The notes under the pieces: generated by a model
Seen by the model: the letters and a program-made list of their open reading frames with translations, nothing else
Told to the model about the DNA's origin: nothing
Databases searched by the model: none
Shown: one piece after another, positions 12,569 through 23,213 of the stretch
Position numbering within the stretch: the stretch's first letter is position 1
Layout of the letters: every line of letters starts with the position of its first letter
IMG/VR virus record: IMGVR_UViG_3300030108_003501
Coordinates: 1-23,384 of that record
Strand: one strand, 5' to 3'
Length of the DNA stretch: 23,384 nucleotides
From: a virus
Position numbers and translations under genes: made by a program

Positions 12569-12810
12569 CAACAAAAGATATATTTGAGGAAGCATTTCCT
12601 CAATACACTCAAATAGGTGGGAATCACTATACTAAATTTCCTATTCAACCATATGAGTTTATTTCTAAAAACAATCTTTCGTTTTTTCAAGGCAACGTAA
12701 TTAAATACGTTTGTCGTTATCAACGAAAGGGAGGTGTTGAAGATCTAAAAAAGATAGTGCACTATTGTCAATTAGAAATGTTAAAAATGAAAGATGCAAA
12801 GAAAACTTAA
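12565..12810 (+). CDS. DUF3310 family protein
   Basis: The 81-aa product carries the DUF3310 signature: IGGNHYTKFPIQPYEFI followed by GNVIKYVCRYQRKGGVEDLKK. This small family is widespread in tailed phages and often sits among replication or nucleotide metabolism genes. No activity is established as far as I know, though it is sometimes loosely labelled nucleotide kinase-like. ATG overlaps the helicase stop (ATGA), and its own end overlaps the methyltransferase start by 17 bases, so all are translated from one message. Confidence 0.9.
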   Translation: MTTKDIFEEAFPQYTQIGGNHYTKFPIQPYEFISKNNLSFFQGNVIKYVCRYQRKGGVEDLKKIVHYCQLEMLKMKDAKKT

Positions 12811-13942
12811 AGTATTAGATTTATTTTCTGGCATAGGAGGATTTGCATTAGGTTTAGACTCTACAGGAATATTTGAGACTGTAAAATTTGTAGAGAAAGA
12901 TAAATACTGTAAGAAAGTTTTACAAAAAAACTTTCCTAACATACCGATTGAGGAGGATATAAAAGATGTTAAAGGAAAAGAAGGAGACGCAGATGTCATT
13001 GTGGGAGGATTCCCCTGCCAACCAATGTCAGTCGCAGGAAAAAGAAAAGGAACAGATGACGACCGCTATCTCTGGCCAGAAATGTTTAGACTCATTAGGG
13101 AGATCAAACCCCAATTCGTTATTGGGGAGAATGTGCAAGGAATTATTAACATCCAAAACGGCATGGTACTCAGACAGGTGCAAGACGACTTGGAAAGTGA
13201 AGGTTTCGAAGTCCAATGTTTCCTTATTCCAGCTTCAGGCATCGGTGCTTGGCACCAGAGGTACAGAGTCTGGATTGTGGGCCACTCCGAACACAATGGA
13301 TCACTTGCCTCCAAGATCAAAAGAAGGGACACTGAAACTACAACAAGGACACAGGAGGGGACGAACACGACCGGCAAACCTGCGAGAACAAGTGGATCCA
13401 GAAACAATGAGAATGTATCCGACACCGAGATCATCGGGACAAGAGAATCCAGAAACATTAATCAAGAGGAAGGGGATGAAAGCAGCAGCTCAACACAATC
13501 TAACAGCAGCAGTGAAGATGTATCCAACACCAACAGTGGGATCAGAGGAGGGTGGAGAACAATCGGACAGAGTGGAGAGAACAAAGTCTGGAGGTTTTAT
13601 TCTAAGGAAGAAGAACAAACCACAGATGACTTACGGAGCAAAACTATCAGACGCAATGCTTTACTTGGAAAAGAAAAAATTATTTTACAGTCCAACAACG
13701 AACGACGGGAAGAACGTGACGTTTCCGATCAGTCAGAAGAACAGAACATCAATAGTAGGAGACATGATACGAATGAACAAGAACAAACCTGGTGGCAAAT
13801 TGAATCCGACCTTTGTGGAATTCCTGATGGGATTTCCTATGAATTGGACAAAGACAGAGCCAACAGAATCAAAACTCTTGGTAACGCAATCGTCCCACAA
13901 ATTGCAAGAGAAATAGGATTAGCTATAAAAAAAGTTTTATGA
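12794..13942 (+). CDS. Cytosine-5 DNA methyltransferase (Dcm-like)
   Basis: It transfers a methyl group from S-adenosylmethionine to C5 of cytosine in a specific site, probably protecting phage DNA from host restriction. Motif I VLDLFSGIGGFALGL is at residues 7-21, catalytic motif IV GGFPCQPMSVAG has C75 as nucleophile, motif VI is IGENV, motif VIII QRYRVWIV is near 155, and motif X LGNAIVPQIAREIG is near 362-376. Residues about 170-330, where the target-recognition domain should lie, are low-complexity and rich in S, T, N, E and R. Local GC is about 50% in one line I counted, against about 30% in neighbours. A second frame runs through most of the gene. It overlaps DUF3310 upstream and PolA downstream (ATGA). 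Confidence 0.93.
   Translation: MQRKLKVLDLFSGIGGFALGLDSTGIFETVKFVEKDKYCKKVLQKNFPNIPIEEDIKDVKGKEGDADVIVGGFPCQPMSVAGKRKGTDDDRYLWPEMFRLIREIKPQFVIGENVQGIINIQNGMVLRQVQDDLESEGFEVQCFLIPASGIGAWHQRYRVWIVGHSEHNGSLASKIKRRDTETTTRTQEGTNTTGKPARTSGSRNNENVSDTEIIGTRESRNINQEEGDESSSSTQSNSSSEDVSNTNSGIRGGWRTIGQSGENKVWRFYSKEEEQTTDDLRSKTIRRNALLGKEKIILQSNNERREERDVSDQSEEQNINSRRHDTNEQEQTWWQIESDLCGIPDGISYELDKDRANRIKTLGNAIVPQIAREIGLAIKKVL
12993..13916 (+). CDS. Overlapping gene nested in the methyltransferase, 307 aa
   Basis: This frame runs inside the Dcm gene in another phase and is open for over 900 bases. Its start at 12993 (MSLWEDSPA) has a near-ideal site, AAGGAG at 12981-12986 with a six-base spacer; an upstream in-frame ATG at 12966 has none. 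The product has ordered features: ISGQKCLDSLGRS, SLLGRMCKELLTSKTAW, GTRGTESGLWATP, then repeats of an aromatic-x-T/S-P unit (LWATP, MYPTP twice, FYSPT), and GGKLNPTFVEFLMGFPMNW near the end. From memory, products with GLWPTP and GG-LNP-WVEWLMGFP-GW patterns turn up in phage data, overlapping Dcm-type genes. The function is unknown. Both frames may be real; the alternative is that it is a by-product of the Dcm codon pattern. Confidence 0.55.
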   Translation: MSLWEDSPANQCQSQEKEKEQMTTAISGQKCLDSLGRSNPNSLLGRMCKELLTSKTAWYSDRCKTTWKVKVSKSNVSLFQLQASVLGTRGTESGLWATPNTMDHLPPRSKEGTLKLQQGHRRGRTRPANLREQVDPETMRMYPTPRSSGQENPETLIKRKGMKAAAQHNLTAAVKMYPTPTVGSEEGGEQSDRVERTKSGGFILRKKNKPQMTYGAKLSDAMLYLEKKKLFYSPTTNDGKNVTFPISQKNRTSIVGDMIRMNKNKPGGKLNPTFVEFLMGFPMNWTKTEPTESKLLVTQSSHKLQEK

Positions 13943-15803: not shown

Positions 15804-16454
15804 ATGGCTTATTTAAATGCAAACATACCAGTAGAGTACGCACAAATTAGAAGGGAGTATTTATATGATCTTAAAAAACATCATGGAGAAGTTGAAGACT
15901 GTATTATCTTTGGTGTTAGCTGTATTACAGGTCGTGCTTTATTATTTCATGCTATTATGGAAAACGGCGCAATCTTTTATCGCCTCCCAATTAGCGCGTT
16001 TATTCAAAGAGGATTTAAAGTTACCGACGTACCACAAAGAAGACTTGATGAACTTCAGCTCTGGAATTCTTTTAGTTATTATCCTTCTGTTCATTGTTGG
16101 GACATTCTAGAATCACAATCTGGTAAATACATTGGTAAAGATAAAAAATGGCATCACGGAAAATATTTATTTACTGTTGACTTTGCACATCCAGAAGCTA
16201 ACATACTAGACACTGATCATTCAGAGATACCGCACGAACATAAGTGCGCTCACATACTTGCTTTAAACGATGGCAACTATGCAGCTCAACCTAACAACAG
16301 ATTAATATGGGACATACCGTCATTTACGGTAAAGGATCAAGTACCTGATTGGAAGGTTCAAACTAATTATTGGAACGTAGAAGATACAGGACAATGGAAA
16401 ACTGAGGACACTGATAATTTCTTCTACGAGATGGAGGAGAAGAAACATGATTAA
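15804..16454 (+). CDS. Conserved marine phage protein of unknown function, 216 aa
   Basis: The product is a soluble, aromatic- and histidine-rich protein with no membrane segment. Visible blocks are FGVSCITGRALLFHAIMENG, LPISAFIQRG, a tryptophan-rich centre LQLWNSFSYYPSVHCWDIL, then HPEANILDTDHSEIPHEHK and a C-terminal part with LIWDIPSFTVKDQVPDWKVQTN. AAGGA lies six bases before the start, two bases after the PolA stop. I recognise the sequence type as a frequent neighbour of DNA polymerase in marine phages but know no function. A DNA metabolism role is inferred only from position. A second frame inside it (15865-16110) encodes a hydrophobic peptide. Confidence 0.8.
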   Translation: MAYLNANIPVEYAQIRREYLYDLKKHHGEVEDCIIFGVSCITGRALLFHAIMENGAIFYRLPISAFIQRGFKVTDVPQRRLDELQLWNSFSYYPSVHCWDILESQSGKYIGKDKKWHHGKYLFTVDFAHPEANILDTDHSEIPHEHKCAHILALNDGNYAAQPNNRLIWDIPSFTVKDQVPDWKVQTNYWNVEDTGQWKTEDTDNFFYEMEEKKHD

Positions 16455-16548
16455 AAAAGTTAAAGATAAAGCTTTACACTATTGGGCAAACCATAAGATT
16501 GAATCTATTGTGTTTGTAATTTTAGTCGTAGCATTAATAGTTAAATAA
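16447..16548 (+). CDS. 33-aa single-membrane-segment micro-protein
   Basis: The short frame starts at ATG 16447 with GGAGGAG (16433-16439) seven bases upstream, a strong ribosome-binding site. It begins with a basic amphipathic stretch MIKKVKDKALHYWANHK and ends in one membrane segment IESIVFVILVVALIVK. It overlaps the stop of the previous gene by eight bases. It is the first of several tiny membrane proteins leading to the endolysin, so a lysis role (holin or holin-modulator type) is plausible but unproven. Confidence 0.6.
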   Translation: MIKKVKDKALHYWANHKIESIVFVILVVALIVK

Positions 16549-16569
16549 TGAATTCAGGAGATAGCCAGT

Positions 16570-16707
16570 ATGGATTACAGATTCACAGCTTTGCTGATAA
16601 TTTTAATATGTTTACTGGCTATTTTCGTACGTCCAATGTCTCATACGCCGTTGAAACTAGACTCAAAAGACTTTATACTACCAAAACCAAAACCTAAAAA
16701 TGAATAA
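16570..16707 (+). CDS. 45-aa membrane-anchored micro-protein
   Basis: ATG 16570 has AGGAG nine bases upstream. Residues 6-20 are a membrane segment (TALLIILICLLAIFV), followed by a short polar, proline/lysine-rich tail (ILPKPKPKNE) that would lie outside the inner membrane if the N-terminus stays inside. The stop overlaps the next gene by eight bases. The layout (one anchor, short proline-rich tail, beside a coiled-coil anchored protein and an endolysin) could fit a spanin-like pair, but no lipobox is present, so this remains a guess. Confidence 0.55.
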   Translation: MDYRFTALLIILICLLAIFVRPMSHTPLKLDSKDFILPKPKPKNE

Positions 16708-17202: not shown

Positions 17203-17410
17203 GACTGTGATAGCTTTACTTATGTTTGTAAACGGAGAGATTAAGGAAGCCCGTTTGCAACCATCAATGGCAGTATGTTTACGAGGTAAACGTGAAGCAG
17301 AGAGAACTTTTTCTGAGTCTGTTTCTTATAAATGTATTCGTAGTAAAGCAGAATTAGAGGACAATATTGATGGATCGAAAAGTATTAAAAAACTTATCTT
17401 ATCTAAATAA
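17195..17410 (+). CDS. Small conserved, probably exported phage protein, 71 aa
   Basis: The product starts with a short hydrophobic stretch (MIETVIALLMFVNG), then a soluble part with two cysteines (C28, C47) that could form a disulphide, and ends in KSIKKLILSK. GAGG (17186-17189) lies 5 bases upstream of the start. Similar short proteins sit beside the M15 endolysin in marine phages as I remember them. A periplasmic role in lysis is possible; nothing in the sequence proves it. Confidence 0.65.
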   Translation: MIETVIALLMFVNGEIKEARLQPSMAVCLRGKREAERTFSESVSYKCIRSKAELEDNIDGSKSIKKLILSK

Positions 17411-17510
17411 ATTTGCACAAAGATTAAGAGATGCACGCTTTTATCAACGTAGAAAAGATAGTAAAAAAATATATAATAGGAAAAAAATAAAAAATGAATC
17501 TTTCGCGTAA
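17370..17510 (+). CDS. 46-aa strongly basic micro-protein
   Basis: The frame starts at ATG 17370 inside the end of the previous gene, with GAGG nine bases upstream, and ends 17 bases inside the endolysin gene, bridging the 83-base gap between them. The product, beginning MDRKVLKNLSYLNKFAQRL, is dominated by Lys/Arg (RRKDSKKIYNRKK). It would bind nucleic acid or membrane if made. The bridging position and readable start support a real gene; no family is recognised. Confidence 0.45.
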   Translation: MDRKVLKNLSYLNKFAQRLRDARFYQRRKDSKKIYNRKKIKNESFA

Positions 17511-17970
17511 CTTCACTCTCTCAGAGCTTATCAAAAGCGACACTGCTATACGTAAGGGCATCAATAACAATCCTAACGCAGAGCAAATAGAAAAATTAAA
17601 ATTATTGTGTGAAAATATTTTACAGCCAGTACGTGATCATTTTGGCAGGGTAAAGGTGACTAGCGGATTTCGTAGCAGTGAGTTGTGTGTGGCCATCGGC
17701 AGCTCAGTCAACAGCCAACATGCCAAGGCAGAAGCTGCGGATTTTGAAGTAATAGGCACAGACAACGCTGAACTTTTTGATTGGATAAAAGCAAACCTCA
17801 CGCCAGATCAGCTCATACTCGAGTTCTATACTCCAGGTGAACCTAACAGCGGATGGATCCATTGCAGCTGGATAGCAGATCAACCAAGAGCATCATTTCT
17901 ACATGCGTATAGATCTGAGGGTAAAACAAAATATAAACCTATATTAGGGAGTGCCAGAGATCTTGTCTAA
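17494..17970 (+). CDS. Peptidase M15 family endolysin (D-Ala-D-Ala-type)
   Basis: This zinc peptidase cleaves peptide cross-links in peptidoglycan at the end of infection. The M15A pattern is clear: NFTLSELIKSDTA at the N-terminus, VTSGFRSSEL (55-64), the zinc-binding SQHAKAEAADFEV (H76, D83), the catalytic acid in LILEF (E110), and GWIHCSW (third ligand H123). At 158 aa it is the normal size for a single-domain phage endolysin. It has no signal peptide, so it needs a holin-like partner; several tiny membrane proteins lie just upstream. The start overlaps the basic micro-protein. Confidence 0.92.
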   Translation: MNLSRNFTLSELIKSDTAIRKGINNNPNAEQIEKLKLLCENILQPVRDHFGRVKVTSGFRSSELCVAIGSSVNSQHAKAEAADFEVIGTDNAELFDWIKANLTPDQLILEFYTPGEPNSGWIHCSWIADQPRASFLHAYRSEGKTKYKPILGSARDLV

Positions 17971-18184: not shown

Positions 18185-18290
18185 GTTTACAACTTTTGTA
18201 CCAAGACCAAAACCAAAGAAACGTCCAGGTCGACATACAAAAAGATTAAACAAACATAGAAAGAGACAATTGAAACATAACGGAAGATGA
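18171..18290 (+). CDS. 39-aa highly basic conserved micro-protein
   Basis: ATG 18171 begins MAKRKFTTFVPRPKPKKRPG, and the rest is also made mainly of K, R, H and N (RLNKHRKRQLKH). Despite its size I recognise nearly the same sequence from several marine phage contigs, always in a string of small genes near an endolysin, which argues that it is real. The charge suggests nucleic acid or ribosome binding; this is inference. It overlaps the previous gene by 14 bases and the next by four (ATGA). Confidence 0.7.
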   Translation: MAKRKFTTFVPRPKPKKRPGRHTKRLNKHRKRQLKHNGR

Positions 18291-18872: not shown

Positions 18873-19058
18873 ATGACAGACTTTAGCAAATATAAAAATG
18901 TATCACTATCAAATGATACATATACTAAACTTGACAGTTTGAGAAGGGTCATAGTGCCCAACACAATTGTATCAAGAGCCCAGACTGTTAATATCTTAGT
19001 AAATGAAAAAGTTGAGAAGATGAATGGCAAACTGGCAAAGGCTAAGAACAAAGGATGA
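18873..19058 (+). CDS. Ribbon-helix-helix (CopG/Arc-like) DNA-binding regulator
   Basis: The 61-aa protein fits the ribbon-helix-helix fold. A short strand with alternating polar residues, YKNVSLSNDTY (7-17), would contact DNA. Helix A is KLDSLRRVIV, followed by a turn, and helix B begins SRAQTVNILVNEKVEK (34-49). A basic tail ends the protein. Such proteins bind as dimers to short palindromes. The gene is directly preceded by a promoter carrying a 12-bp palindrome, so autoregulation is likely. The target genes are unknown. It overlaps or abuts the next gene depending on the chosen start. Confidence 0.7.
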   Translation: MTDFSKYKNVSLSNDTYTKLDSLRRVIVPNTIVSRAQTVNILVNEKVEKMNGKLAKAKNKG

Positions 19059-19664: not shown

Positions 19665-19845
19665 TGCATTAGAAGATAAGTACAATGCCCAGATATCTTC
19701 TGCTGATGCAACTATAAAAATTTATTTAGATCACTCTGTGGGCATCGGAGAACATCCACAACACATAGAAGAATTAGATAAACTTCTTCAACAGATTGTT
19801 GATGCACAAGAAAAATTAAAAGAATTACAGGCATATAAGATATGA
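19639..19845 (+). CDS. Conserved small helical phage protein, 68 aa
   Basis: The start at ATG 19639 (MSLRLALISALEDKYNAQIS) is supported by AAGGAG six bases upstream; an earlier in-frame ATG at 19615 has no site. The protein is helical, with a conserved-looking IYLDHSVGIGEHPQHIEELD in the middle and a coiled-coil end. I recall near-identical sequences in marine phages in the same gene order. The function is unknown. Its stop overlaps the next start (ATGA). Confidence 0.75.
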   Translation: MSLRLALISALEDKYNAQISSADATIKIYLDHSVGIGEHPQHIEELDKLLQQIVDAQEKLKELQAYKI

Positions 19846-20285
19846 TTAGCGAAGCTGATGCAGCATATATTGCAGGTTTGTTTGATGGTGAGGGTAGTAT
19901 TCAATACAAACAATACGACAGACAAAGAAAAAATAATAAAAAGCCATACCCTACCTGGTCAATTAGGATGGAAATATCTATGACGGATAAATCTGTTTTG
20001 GCTTGGATGCATAATTTATTAGGATGTGGAACCCTTAACGAAAAAAGATACAAGACTCCATATACAGTTGGATGGAAAAAACAATGGCGTTGGAGATGTC
20101 AATCAAGAGATGCGTACTATGTTTCTTTGTTGATCCAACCTTACGCTCATGTAAAAATAGAAGATATAAATAAAATTATTAAACATTACTCAATGCTTGG
20201 TAAAGAAAAAATTAAAGCTAAAGTAATTAACATTGCTAATTATAAAATTAAAAAAACAAATAGTTTGATAGATTATGATGGATGA
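19842..20285 (+). CDS. LAGLIDADG-type homing endonuclease, free-standing
   Basis: Residues 8-20 AYIAGLFDGEGSI are a clear LAGLIDADG motif, in which the acidic residue of GEG would bind the catalytic metal. Only one motif is present in 147 aa, so it would act as a homodimer on a near-palindromic site. Supporting features are WSIRMEISMTDKSVLAWMHN and LLGCGTLNEK, typical strand/helix elements of the fold. The C-terminus is lysine-rich. The gene is not inside an intron or intein as far as I can see; it sits between two intact genes, overlapping both by a few bases. It is a selfish endonuclease or a domesticated one. Confidence 0.85.
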   Translation: MISEADAAYIAGLFDGEGSIQYKQYDRQRKNNKKPYPTWSIRMEISMTDKSVLAWMHNLLGCGTLNEKRYKTPYTVGWKKQWRWRCQSRDAYYVSLLIQPYAHVKIEDINKIIKHYSMLGKEKIKAKVINIANYKIKKTNSLIDYDG

Positions 20286-21275: not shown

Positions 21276-21563
21276 ATGCCTAAGAAAAGAAGAAAAGCTG
21301 CACTCACTGAAACAACACCCGATATACCATTCCACAAAGTTAGAGTTGAATGGGTTGATTGTGTATCTGATTCTGGATGGGCTAATGAAAAAGAATTTGA
21401 TAAAATGAAATTAGCTAGACCAGTAAACGAGGGTTGGCTATACGAAAAAACAAAAGATCATATAAAAATATTTGCATCATACGATAAAGATGAAGATGGA
21501 ATTACGTTTGGGGATCGGACGATGATTCCTCGACAGTGGGTGAAGAAGATAACTCGTCTGTAA
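21276..21563 (+). CDS. Conserved small marine phage protein, 95 aa
   Basis: After a basic start (MPKKRRKAALTET) comes a well-conserved-looking domain: RVEWVDCVSDSGWANEKEF, then LARPVNEGWLYEK, IKIFASYD and ITFGDRTMIPRQWVKKI. I recognise this sequence from many uncultured marine phages, without function. It may be a small beta-barrel (SH3-like) domain from the strand pattern; that is inference. AAGGTGG precedes the start by only a few bases. It is the only gene of its orientation between the repeat cluster and the terminase gene, and its last 62 bases overlap that gene's 3' end on the other strand. Confidence 0.75.
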   Translation: MPKKRRKAALTETTPDIPFHKVRVEWVDCVSDSGWANEKEFDKMKLARPVNEGWLYEKTKDHIKIFASYDKDEDGITFGDRTMIPRQWVKKITRL

Positions 21564-22224
21564 CTACTTCAGCATTTCTATCTATAATCGGTTGGTAATG
21601 TTCCAAAGCTTCTACAACCTTTTTATCTATTTCTTCTTGGCTCAAACCTTCATGCTTGTGTAGGTGAATCTGTTGATTGTTATAATATCCAGCTGCTTTT
21701 CCACGTGAAACCTCCATATTACCTGATGCAGTCCAGGCTTTGTTTTCTCTGAACTCATCTCTCAATCTACCTAATTCTGTTATGTGACCTTCAAATGTTA
21801 TGTCATATTTTTTTCTTAATTCAGATCTTCTGATCCCTATATAAGCTACAACATCTGGATGTAATTTAGAATTCTGTAATTGACTAGCTTTTGAGTAAGC
21901 ACTTTTTTCTGAATATCCTGCTTTGATTGCACACATTTCTGGTGTTAGTCTACCCTCTTCTGATGCTATTAACTCTGCAAATTTTCTTTGTTTATCTGTT
22001 AGATCAGGTAAAGTTTTTGCTTTTTCTAATCTTAACTCGTTTATTCTATTGACTACAAGTGGGTATTGTTTGGGGTTTTGAAGTTTACTAGCTATCACTT
22101 CAGCAGTCTCTGTCGAGTATCCTGCTTGAATTGCGCAGTCTTTTGCGGTCAGTTTGCCTTCATTGTCCACCAATATGTCTGTAAACAATATTTGTTTTTC
22201 TGTTAATCTTTTTGGAACTCCCAT
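21502..22224 (-). CDS. Terminase small subunit
   Basis: The DNA-packaging recognition subunit, 240 aa. It has two successive helix-turn-helix units, LTEKQILFTDILVDNEGKLT leading to AIQAGYSTETAEVIASKLQN (residues 7-50), and LTDKQRKFAELIASEEGRLT leading to AIKAGYSEKSAYSKASQLQN (76-119), an obvious internal duplication. An oligomerisation region with FEGHITELGRLRDEF and AAGYYNNQQIHLHKHEG follows, then an acidic Ser-rich tail. It would bind the packaging site and hand DNA to a large subunit, which is not in the window. No ribosome-binding site precedes ATG 22224. The promoter at 22227-22258 places the transcript start at the ATG, suggesting a leaderless message. Confidence 0.85.
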   Translation of the reverse strand: MGVPKRLTEKQILFTDILVDNEGKLTAKDCAIQAGYSTETAEVIASKLQNPKQYPLVVNRINELRLEKAKTLPDLTDKQRKFAELIASEEGRLTPEMCAIKAGYSEKSAYSKASQLQNSKLHPDVVAYIGIRRSELRKKYDITFEGHITELGRLRDEFRENKAWTASGNMEVSRGKAAGYYNNQQIHLHKHEGLSQEEIDKKVVEALEHYQPIIDRNAEVVTDELSSSPTVEESSSDPQT

Positions 22225-22264: not shown

Positions 22265-22498
22265 ATGAATGGAAAGCTATTAAGTCAAGTATTAAATAAA
22301 ATGCTAGTATCTCCTGCAGCTCAAGATGCAAGAGTACAAGTTTGTTTACCAGATGGTAAATTTTATGATGTTACTTCATTTCAAATGCTTGAAAATAAAA
22401 TTATAGGACACAGAGAGTCTCACAGGTTGGTGTTCACAATCAAGGCAGAGACTTGGAATATGGGTAAGGTTATTAAAAAAATTGGTGACCACTCTTAA
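22265..22498 (+). CDS. Conserved small marine phage protein, 77 aa
   Basis: The core LLSQVLNKMLVSPAAQDARV followed by PDGKFYDVTSFQMLENK and HRLVFTIKAETWNMG is familiar from uncultured marine phages; it is likely a small alpha/beta domain with no known function. No Shine-Dalgarno sequence precedes ATG 22265, which lies seven bases after the divergent inverted repeat, so translation may be leaderless or nearly so. It is co-directional with the nuclease gene, from which a 12-base tandem repeat separates it. Confidence 0.75.
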   Translation: MNGKLLSQVLNKMLVSPAAQDARVQVCLPDGKFYDVTSFQMLENKIIGHRESHRLVFTIKAETWNMGKVIKKIGDHS

Positions 22499-22518: not shown

Positions 22519-22893
22519 ATGTTAAAGGAAGAGAGTAAATTTTGGAGACAAATTAAAGACCATAAATGTAAAATAACCTGGACTAGGATTGAAAATTCTG
22601 CATCACATGGCACCCCAGATTTACTAGGATACACCAATAAAAAAACATTTTTTACATTAGAATTAAAAGTTAAAAAAAGTAAAAAAATATCGTTCTCACC
22701 ACACCAGATTTCGTTTCATATTAGACATCCTAAGAACACTTTTATCATGGTAAAAGAGCTGCCACGGGCCCTCGGTCAGGGGGCTATAAAACTTTATGAA
22801 GGGACCGAGATCCACGCGCTTGTGGGCGGGACCCACCCGGAGCCTGTGGCTTGTGGCTTATCAGCTTGTTGCTTGTTCCTTGAGCGCTTGTAG
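22519..22893 (+). CDS. PD-(D/E)XK (VRR-NUC/Hjc-like) nuclease
   Basis: The 124-aa protein begins KEESKFWRQIKDH and WTRIENSASHGTPDLLGY, with D34 as first metal ligand, followed by TFFTLELKVKKSK (E48, K50) and FSPHQISFH (Q63). This is the compact nuclease fold of VRR-NUC/Holliday-junction-resolvase-like proteins common in phages. It probably cleaves branched replication or recombination intermediates. The fold should be complete near LYEGTE (about residue 95). The last 25-30 residues (from about HALVGGTHPEP) are encoded by the GC-rich repeat island and look like a tail gained by read-in. The start lacks a ribosome-binding site. Confidence 0.75.
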   Translation: MLKEESKFWRQIKDHKCKITWTRIENSASHGTPDLLGYTNKKTFFTLELKVKKSKKISFSPHQISFHIRHPKNTFIMVKELPRALGQGAIKLYEGTEIHALVGGTHPEPVACGLSACCLFLERL

Positions 22894-22930
22894 CTTGTGG
22901 CCTGGTGCGTGCTTGTGGGCGGGGCCCTCC
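22811..22930. repeat. GC-rich GCTTGTN heptad repeat island
   Basis: From 22842 to 22917 the sequence is a chain of seven-base units near GCTTGTN (for example GCCTGTG, GCTTGTG, GCTTGTT twice, GCTTGTA, GCTTGTG), some decayed. The array is framed by an exact 13-base direct repeat GCTTGTGGGCGGG (22818-22830 and 22911-22923). Composition here is far more GC-rich than in the rest of the window. The first part lies in the nuclease C-terminus; the last part, to 22937, is noncoding. CTCGGTC (22771-22777) and GACCGAG (22803-22809) form an inverted pair just upstream. Confidence 0.7.
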
Positions 22931-22937
22931 CAGAAAT

Positions 22938-23213
22938 TTATTCATACCATGATTGCTCGGAGTAATCTTCAGGGCCATGTTGAGCTTCAAAGATGAACGC
23001 CTGGAGTTTATCCTCCCAAGACCATTGTCCAGATTCCTTTTCCAGGATCGGTTGAATTTTTGTAATAAATTTTGCAGCTTGCTCCCTGGATTTAAAACCT
23101 CTTTTAACGTCTCGTGCTTTTTGACGTGACCAATACGACCATCCGCCCTCTTCATCACCGCCGTGATTCCTGGTCGCCCAATAAATAGAAATATAAAAAT
23201 TAGTGTTCACCAT
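22938..23213 (-). CDS. Small soluble phage protein of unknown function, reverse strand, 91 aa
   Basis: The product MVNTNFYISIYWATRNHGGD continues with EEGGWSYWSRQKARDVKRG, FKSREQAAKFI and an acidic, tryptophan-containing end (PEDYSEQSWYE). It is rich in aromatic residues, folded-looking and clearly unlike random translation. The start overlaps the end of the upstream reverse-strand gene by 14 bases, indicating coupled translation; no separate ribosome-binding site is seen. Its GC (about 45% in one line I counted) is higher than most of the window. I do not recognise a named family. Confidence 0.65.
   Translation of the reverse strand: MVNTNFYISIYWATRNHGGDEEGGWSYWSRQKARDVKRGFKSREQAAKFITKIQPILEKESGQWSWEDKLQAFIFEAQHGPEDYSEQSWYE

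Follow-up and report, generated by a model that had tools for sequence, protein, structure and literature searches.

A GCTTG heptad island at the 3′ end of a viral nuclease gene and its counterparts in HTVC027P-type pelagiphages

The locus and its GC-rich island

The window, i.e., the whole stretch of DNA that we analysed, corresponds to a viral record, 23,384 bases long. At the island described here, its closest named relative is Pelagibacter phage HTVC027P. The relevant features are as follows.

18873..19058, plus strand: 61-aa ribbon-helix-helix-like protein, homologue of HTVC027P gp21 and candidate array binder
21502..22224, minus strand: terminase small subunit (Terminase_2, PF03592)
22265..22498, plus strand: small conserved gene between the terminase small subunit and the nuclease, homologue of HTVC027P gp31
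22519..22893, plus strand: PD-(D/E)XK nuclease gene, 124 aa (PHROG 2165), whose C-terminal codons overlap the island
22765..22937, plus strand: GC-rich island 1, a degenerate GCTTG-NN array with seven GCTTGT units at the nuclease 3′ end (from GC content, counts, TRF and shuffles)
22818..22830, plus strand: 13-base direct repeat GCTTGTGGGCGGG, copy 1, with the hairpin-like continuation GGGCGGGACCCACCC
22845..22901, plus strand: period-7 stretch found by TRF (7.9 copies, 71% match)
22911..22923, plus strand: 13-base direct repeat GCTTGTGGGCGGG, copy 2, with the continuation GGGCGGGGCCCTCCC
22931..23200, no strand: variable slot, with alignment to relatives lost at 22931-22942 and regained at 23197-23200
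22938..23213, minus strand: 91-aa ORF that fills the slot in the window, common to locus L012 and similar in L022
23203..23382, minus strand: GP88 gene, C-terminal part (PF17338 in relatives), which runs off the window

Elsewhere in the window, two long plus-strand ORFs overlap in different frames (12794-13942, 382 aa; 12966-13916, 316 aa). By eye, the 382-aa ORF is a cytosine-5 DNA methyltransferase, and local GC content rises to 0.51. A 147-aa ORF at 19842-20285 resembles HTVC027P gp25, which is annotated as a putative HNH homing endonuclease.

Island 1 has a GC content of 0.607, compared with 0.341 for the whole window. Its 173 nucleotides contain seven GCTTG words (at 22818, 22849, 22864, 22871, 22886, 22893 and 22911), each of which reads GCTTGT. 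In 2000 dinucleotide shuffles of the island, GCTTG occurred 0.79 times on average and at most 5 times, and GCTTGT 0.14 times on average and at most 3 times. The GC-rich heptad island noticed in a first-pass annotation of this DNA is therefore real. The exact 13-base direct repeat noticed with it is also present, and its two copies lie within a 27-nt repeat whose copies are 85% alike. A strict 7-nt register is kept by only two adjacent pairs of units in the window, while the arrays of relatives are much cleaner. Island 1 is a degenerate version of these arrays.

The GGGCGGGGCCCACCC unit was considered as an intrinsic terminator and rejected, because by eye its hairpin is followed by an A-run and not by a T-run. 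A second dispersed repeat, which resembles GCTTGTGGGCGGGGCCCACCC and could form an imperfect hairpin, occurs at 22818-22840 and 22911-22931 of the window; it has 4-9 copies across about 3 kb in relatives without heptad runs (L015-L021, L065 and L074).

The 124-aa protein encoded before the island has invariant PD and ExK residues and a weak match to Hjc, so it is reasonable to call it a nuclease. Its gene is conserved but unannotated in the deposited HTVC027P record (positions 16216-16584, corresponding to L003 4226-4594). The gene stops at a TAG at 22891-22893, and the repeat runs on beyond the stop. The repeat had been thought to extend the nuclease, but in L030, L041 and L068, which lack heptads, the C-termini are of approximately equal length and align to the heptad-coded tail. 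More generally, the tails of array carriers (e.g., ELVACGYKLEACSLGLEA) align to those of array-free relatives (e.g., ELSKVGFKSRALAQGYEDIKKVFNSL) without extra length. Therefore, the repeat overwrites existing C-terminal codons.

The same DNA words also encode the Lys/Gln/Ala/Ser-rich tails of small minus-strand ORFs, including gp32, and the orientation of GCTTG in the DNA is unchanged whichever strand is coding. On one strand the tails consist of Ala, Cys and Leu and on the other of Lys, Gln, Ala and Ser; here, a signal at the level of DNA has clearly been imposed on the C-terminal codons of genes of both strands. Beside island 1 there is a conserved 71-77-nt element (GGCCCGGACCAGG...CTGATCC) that we considered as a structured RNA. 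We abandoned this view because the element can be read as codons of a small minus-strand protein of the HTVC027P gp32 family and because its lengths mostly differ in steps of 3.

Arrays and promoters in related phages

We surveyed arrays in 155 viral loci related to HTVC027P. A protein search with the nuclease led to 71 viral loci, and a DNA search with GCTTGTNGCTTGTNGCTTGT to at least 120 stretches. Among the DNA-search matches listed, the nuclease and/or GP88 is present in 108 of the 119 loci examined, and the pattern is therefore not scattered but characteristic of a single locus in a single phage group. GCTTG-NN arrays occur at the 3′ end of the same nuclease and in one to three further places within about 2 kb. 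GCTTG lies on the nuclease strand in all 135 of 135 loci, and the nuclease and GP88 are convergent in all 103 that hold both, but these counts do not represent independent events, as overlapping assemblies supply many nearly identical loci. Similar heptads recur in many marine phage contigs, as the first-pass annotation had suggested. Absence from every relative or random placement would have spoken against its interpretation, and neither occurred: the arrays recur at one locus. We found no papers on the heptads by sequence or keyword in the literature available without subscription.

The arrays are associated with GP88. Among 54 nuclease relatives with enough downstream sequence, all 23 GP88 carriers have arrays, versus 4 of the 31 that lack GP88. 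Eight of the array-free nuclease relatives without GP88 have repeated GGGCGGGNCCCNCCC units instead. Homologues of HTVC027P gp35, gp36, gp37 and gp39 occur only in array carriers among the contigs compared, and so does GP88, except in phage 023Pt_psg01 (L313). This phage has no GCTTG heptads. Instead, GCTCG/GCTTGC runs and GGGCCCACCC units lie between its nuclease and GP88 genes and upstream of GP88, such that the position is kept while the sequence has turned over.

The genes of the cluster are on the minus strand and have their own TTGACA-N17-TATAGGAT promoters. In HTVC027P, the arrays are at 16506-16631, 17396-17428 and 17719-17737, and the minus-strand promoters at 18202, 17718 and 17395. 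The latter two are fused to an array, whereas the promoter at 18202, which faces a divergent gene, is not. In the relatives, a minus-strand TTGACA lies at most 60 nt from the downstream edge in 49 of 80 islands upstream of GP88 and in 47 of 76 further islands (96 of 156 taken together), but in only 1 of 72 islands at the nuclease end; the background is 0.025 per 60 nt. The commonest gap between the array edge and TTGACA is zero. A −10 box within two mismatches follows 62 of 64 array-abutting TTGACA words, versus 369 of 727 controls, with a spacing of mostly 17.

Promoters located 131-193 nt from the divergent plus-strand gene were never found with an array, while 32 of 38 later tandem promoters have at least two cores. 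The first detected promoter lacks an array in 23 of the 37 loci with any promoter call. In the other 14, it is mostly far from the divergent gene, and an earlier promoter may have been missed. Several GP88 promoters have no array at the −35 box, among them the ones in the lineage to which the window belongs (L004, L006, L010 and L013). Island 1 itself has no promoter at its edge; it lies at the close of the last unit, where this meets the convergent nuclease gene.

The two annotated HTVC027P genes with array-fused promoters are gp33 and gp34. In a published RNA-seq time course of this phage, they form a separate temporal cluster with high expression 6-9 h post infection (PMC12753301). Their shared profile agrees with shared control, but is no proof of control by arrays, since the genes are neighbours on the same strand and could be co-transcribed. 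Separately, a Flavobacterium-1 RNA (Rfam RF02976; 90 and 62 bits) was detected in array-carrying pelagiphages at L003 5763-5883 and L127 911-1036. The L003 match corresponds to HTVC027P 17753-17873 on the minus strand, and ends just short of a heptad island.

Constraint, exchange and other explanations

In units located between exact cores, each core position carries 1.56-1.88 bits, while the two spacer positions carry 0.12 and 0.01 bits. An interval of 7 between GCTTG words dominates in the relatives (1479 cases), and the next most common interval is 14 (90 cases). When homologous arrays of different phages are compared, the core differs at 2.5% of positions (6.2% if arrays are located by their flanks only), the spacers at 38-45% and the flanks at 14-17%. 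Since 7 is coprime to 3, constraint on codons is averaged across the positions of the unit. The natural reading is a constraint on GCTTG at a 7-bp pitch, although a similar pattern would result if a templated process wrote an invariant core and random spacers.

The units had been suggested to have grown by slippage, and a slippage microsatellite should have near-identical neighbours. By contrast, spacers differ from those of the preceding unit in 73-77% of phage units flanked by exact cores, and in 68-74% when duplicates are removed at the level of arrays only. The corresponding value is about 0.11-0.12 in bacterial GCTTGTN arrays, where the genome scan selected for GCTTGT and so favours homogeneity to a degree. 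Slippage is therefore not the explanation for the phage arrays, as their core is conserved and neighbouring spacers usually differ. Bacterial arrays found with the same pattern do look like slippage. Nonetheless, we regard ordinary slippage or an assembly artefact as extremely improbable here: the heterogeneous phage units already contradict it, and arrays are present in an isolate, phage HTVC027P, as well as in many contigs that stem from different samples.

The bacterial (GCTTGTA)n arrays of Pseudomonas, Alcanivorax and Vibrio share the 5-mer and the 7-nt period with the phages. Unlike the phage arrays, they have near-identical units, are dispersed and often occur in both orientations within a genome. 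Several lie, by eye, beside intrinsic terminators or form inverted pairs. Homogeneous examples are L202 and L240 (Alcanivorax), L235 (Vibrio inusitatus) and L244 (Pseudomonas plecoglossicida). One Alcanivorax genome has 222 matches and none to the reversed word.

The right edge of island 1 is a boundary in alignments with relatives, in agreement with the proposal of a module boundary at this place. In comparisons with seven contigs (representing six or seven relatives), alignment to the window is unbroken through the island to 22931-22942, and in all but L012 it is regained only at 23197-23200. L006, for example, is 98.5% and 96.2% identical to the window in the two flanks, and the segment between them is unrelated. 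The segment after the island is thus exchanged between relatives. Slots on the array side hold 22 ORF families among 87 and 26 among 68, compared with 10 among 79 for the slot before the nuclease; the values of 22 and 26 are upper bounds, as short ORFs are hard to cluster. Further breakpoints lie away from arrays, at approximately 11.1 kb, 15.8 kb and 20.3 kb.

These observations raise the possibility that the arrays are repeats prone to recombination and play no part in regulation. Such repeats could have spread by unit exchange between the 3′ ends of the module's genes, would occupy whatever sequence tolerates them as far as the next promoter and would provide homology for the swapping of small cassettes. 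The break at the edge of the island in five relatives out of six, the greater number of families in array-side slots, spacers that evolve faster than the flanks and the changed sequence at a kept position in 023Pt_psg01 all favour this explanation. However, neutral repeats should lose their core at the rate of the spacers, and the core is several-fold better conserved than the flanks. Moreover, orientation never flips relative to the nuclease, slot diversity is overstated by small ORFs and some breakpoints are away from arrays. We therefore consider this explanation unlikely, while giving it serious weight.

The arrays might instead act in RNA. Minus-strand transcripts would then end in (NNCAAGC)n, read at a 7-nt pitch by a ring-forming RNA-binding protein or by a termination factor that ends or protects the transcript. 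Arrays close minus-strand units, including the unit at the nuclease end, and none precedes the promoters at divergent genes. The fixed orientation and 7-nt pitch fit single-stranded RNA, and the structure of array RNA does not exceed that of shuffles (z −0.35). On the other hand, the frequent exact coincidence of an array's end with a −35 box is left unexplained, the units read have no hairpin with a U-run, and we know of no factor that has a CAAGC word. We judge an RNA function to be improbable, and a replication, partition or packaging site, such as a pac site that the small subunit of Terminase_2 would recognise, to be slightly more so. The latter accords with the location of the arrays between terS and terL, and pac sites can be short-repeat arrays within or beside genes. 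The same is true of plasmid parS sites (PMC9499535). Yet instead of a single site there are two to four distinct arrays, mostly promoter-linked, and a similar terminase small subunit is kept in array-free relatives. GC skew merely tracks gene strand, with no switch at the locus beyond this effect, and a replication origin proposed from skew was rejected.

A putative operator and boundary of a variable gene cluster

With the core conserved and the spacers free, the arrays are best read as sites that a protein recognises. This part of an earlier suggestion is thus supported; its other part, that the reader would be the adjacent nuclease or packaging machinery, is conjectural. The nuclease is also present in heptad-free relatives, and arrays occur at several places, most of them promoter-tied. 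We tentatively prefer the explanation that island 1 is the terminal one of two to four oriented protein-binding arrays that bound and regulate individually promoted minus-strand genes. The cluster would comprise GP88 and its small neighbours in HTVC027P-type pelagiphages. Each site would consist of five core base pairs, which read GCTTG on the nuclease strand, and would recur every 7 bp with an unconstrained 2-bp spacer in between. The array would be coated by a small DNA-binding protein that oligomerises. This protein is plausibly of the ribbon-helix-helix type, like omega/ParB, and might be the 61-aa protein encoded by the phage itself. Within the cluster, a coated array would control the promoter whose −35 box adjoins it. 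At unit ends, among them the nuclease end in the window, it would keep adjacent transcription units apart. We infer all three of protein binding, the identity of the binder and the blocking or regulation of RNA polymerase by the array.

The conserved 61-aa ribbon-helix-helix-like protein is a candidate array binder, and no more. Its structural model (pLDDT 79) combines an extended stretch with two helices, as in the topology of ribbon-helix-helix proteins. A Foldseek search with the model gave no significant match (E >1), and sequence-library searches gave no usable match. The protein is present in 22 of 22 heptad loci that cover the region. It is also present in three of five heptad-free relatives, and co-occurrence was therefore rejected as proof of binding. 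Its predicted DNA-facing strand varies (KNVSL, KSLAV and SNVTV), while the GCTTG core is constant.

The omega/ParB protein of plasmid pSM19035 binds runs of 7-10 non-palindromic WATCACW heptads that overlap promoters, with one dimer per heptad (PMC9499535). Its operators and parS sites are built of directly adjoining 7-bp units, conserved in the core and degenerate in the edge bases, with several arrays per replicon that overlap promoter regions (PMC9499535). The phage arrays share this unit design and the occurrence of several arrays per replicon; a promoter within 60 nt is frequent for islands upstream of or beyond GP88 (96 of 156) and rare at the nuclease end (1 of 72). The phage arrays differ in their core (GCTTG versus ATCAC), in having one fixed orientation rather than mixed ones and in also overlapping gene 3′ ends, and their binding protein is a candidate. 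Unspaced direct repeats at a 7-bp pitch with a conserved core, as in omega-type sites, are found in the relatives, and the copy in the window is degenerate. By analogy, the island may work like omega-type heptad operators, but membership of this family is not established, because the array in the window touches no promoter and binding is a proposal. Multicopy elements in Geobacter, with 4-5 tandem 7- or 8-nt repeats, have likewise been proposed as regulatory sites or sites of a global regulator (PMC2700814). They use other words and occur genome-wide in a bacterium, unlike the phage arrays, which are confined to one module.

The cluster also resembles phage morons, i.e., genes with their own promoter and a deviant GC content: its genes are small and GC-rich, lie on the other strand from neighbouring genes, have their own sigma70-like promoters and vary in content. 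In addition to having their own promoters, the GP88 genes have a deviant GC content of 0.43-0.52, versus approximately 0.33 for neighbouring genes. Morons end in an intrinsic terminator, and in that place the array cluster has heptad arrays.

We found no account of control by repeat arrays in SAR11 phages in the literature searched, which comprised papers open without subscription. It is possible, if doubtful, that in HTVC027P-type pelagiphages an oriented 5+2 array code of a kind not described before is read by a small phage-encoded ribbon-helix-helix-like protein and serves as both operator and boundary of a plug-in gene cluster whose members are exchanged at the arrays. The hosts of these phages, SAR11, are among the most abundant bacteria of the ocean. 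The array predicts which genes share a promoter type, and may thereby offer a handle on the temporal class formed by gp33 and gp34 of HTVC027P.
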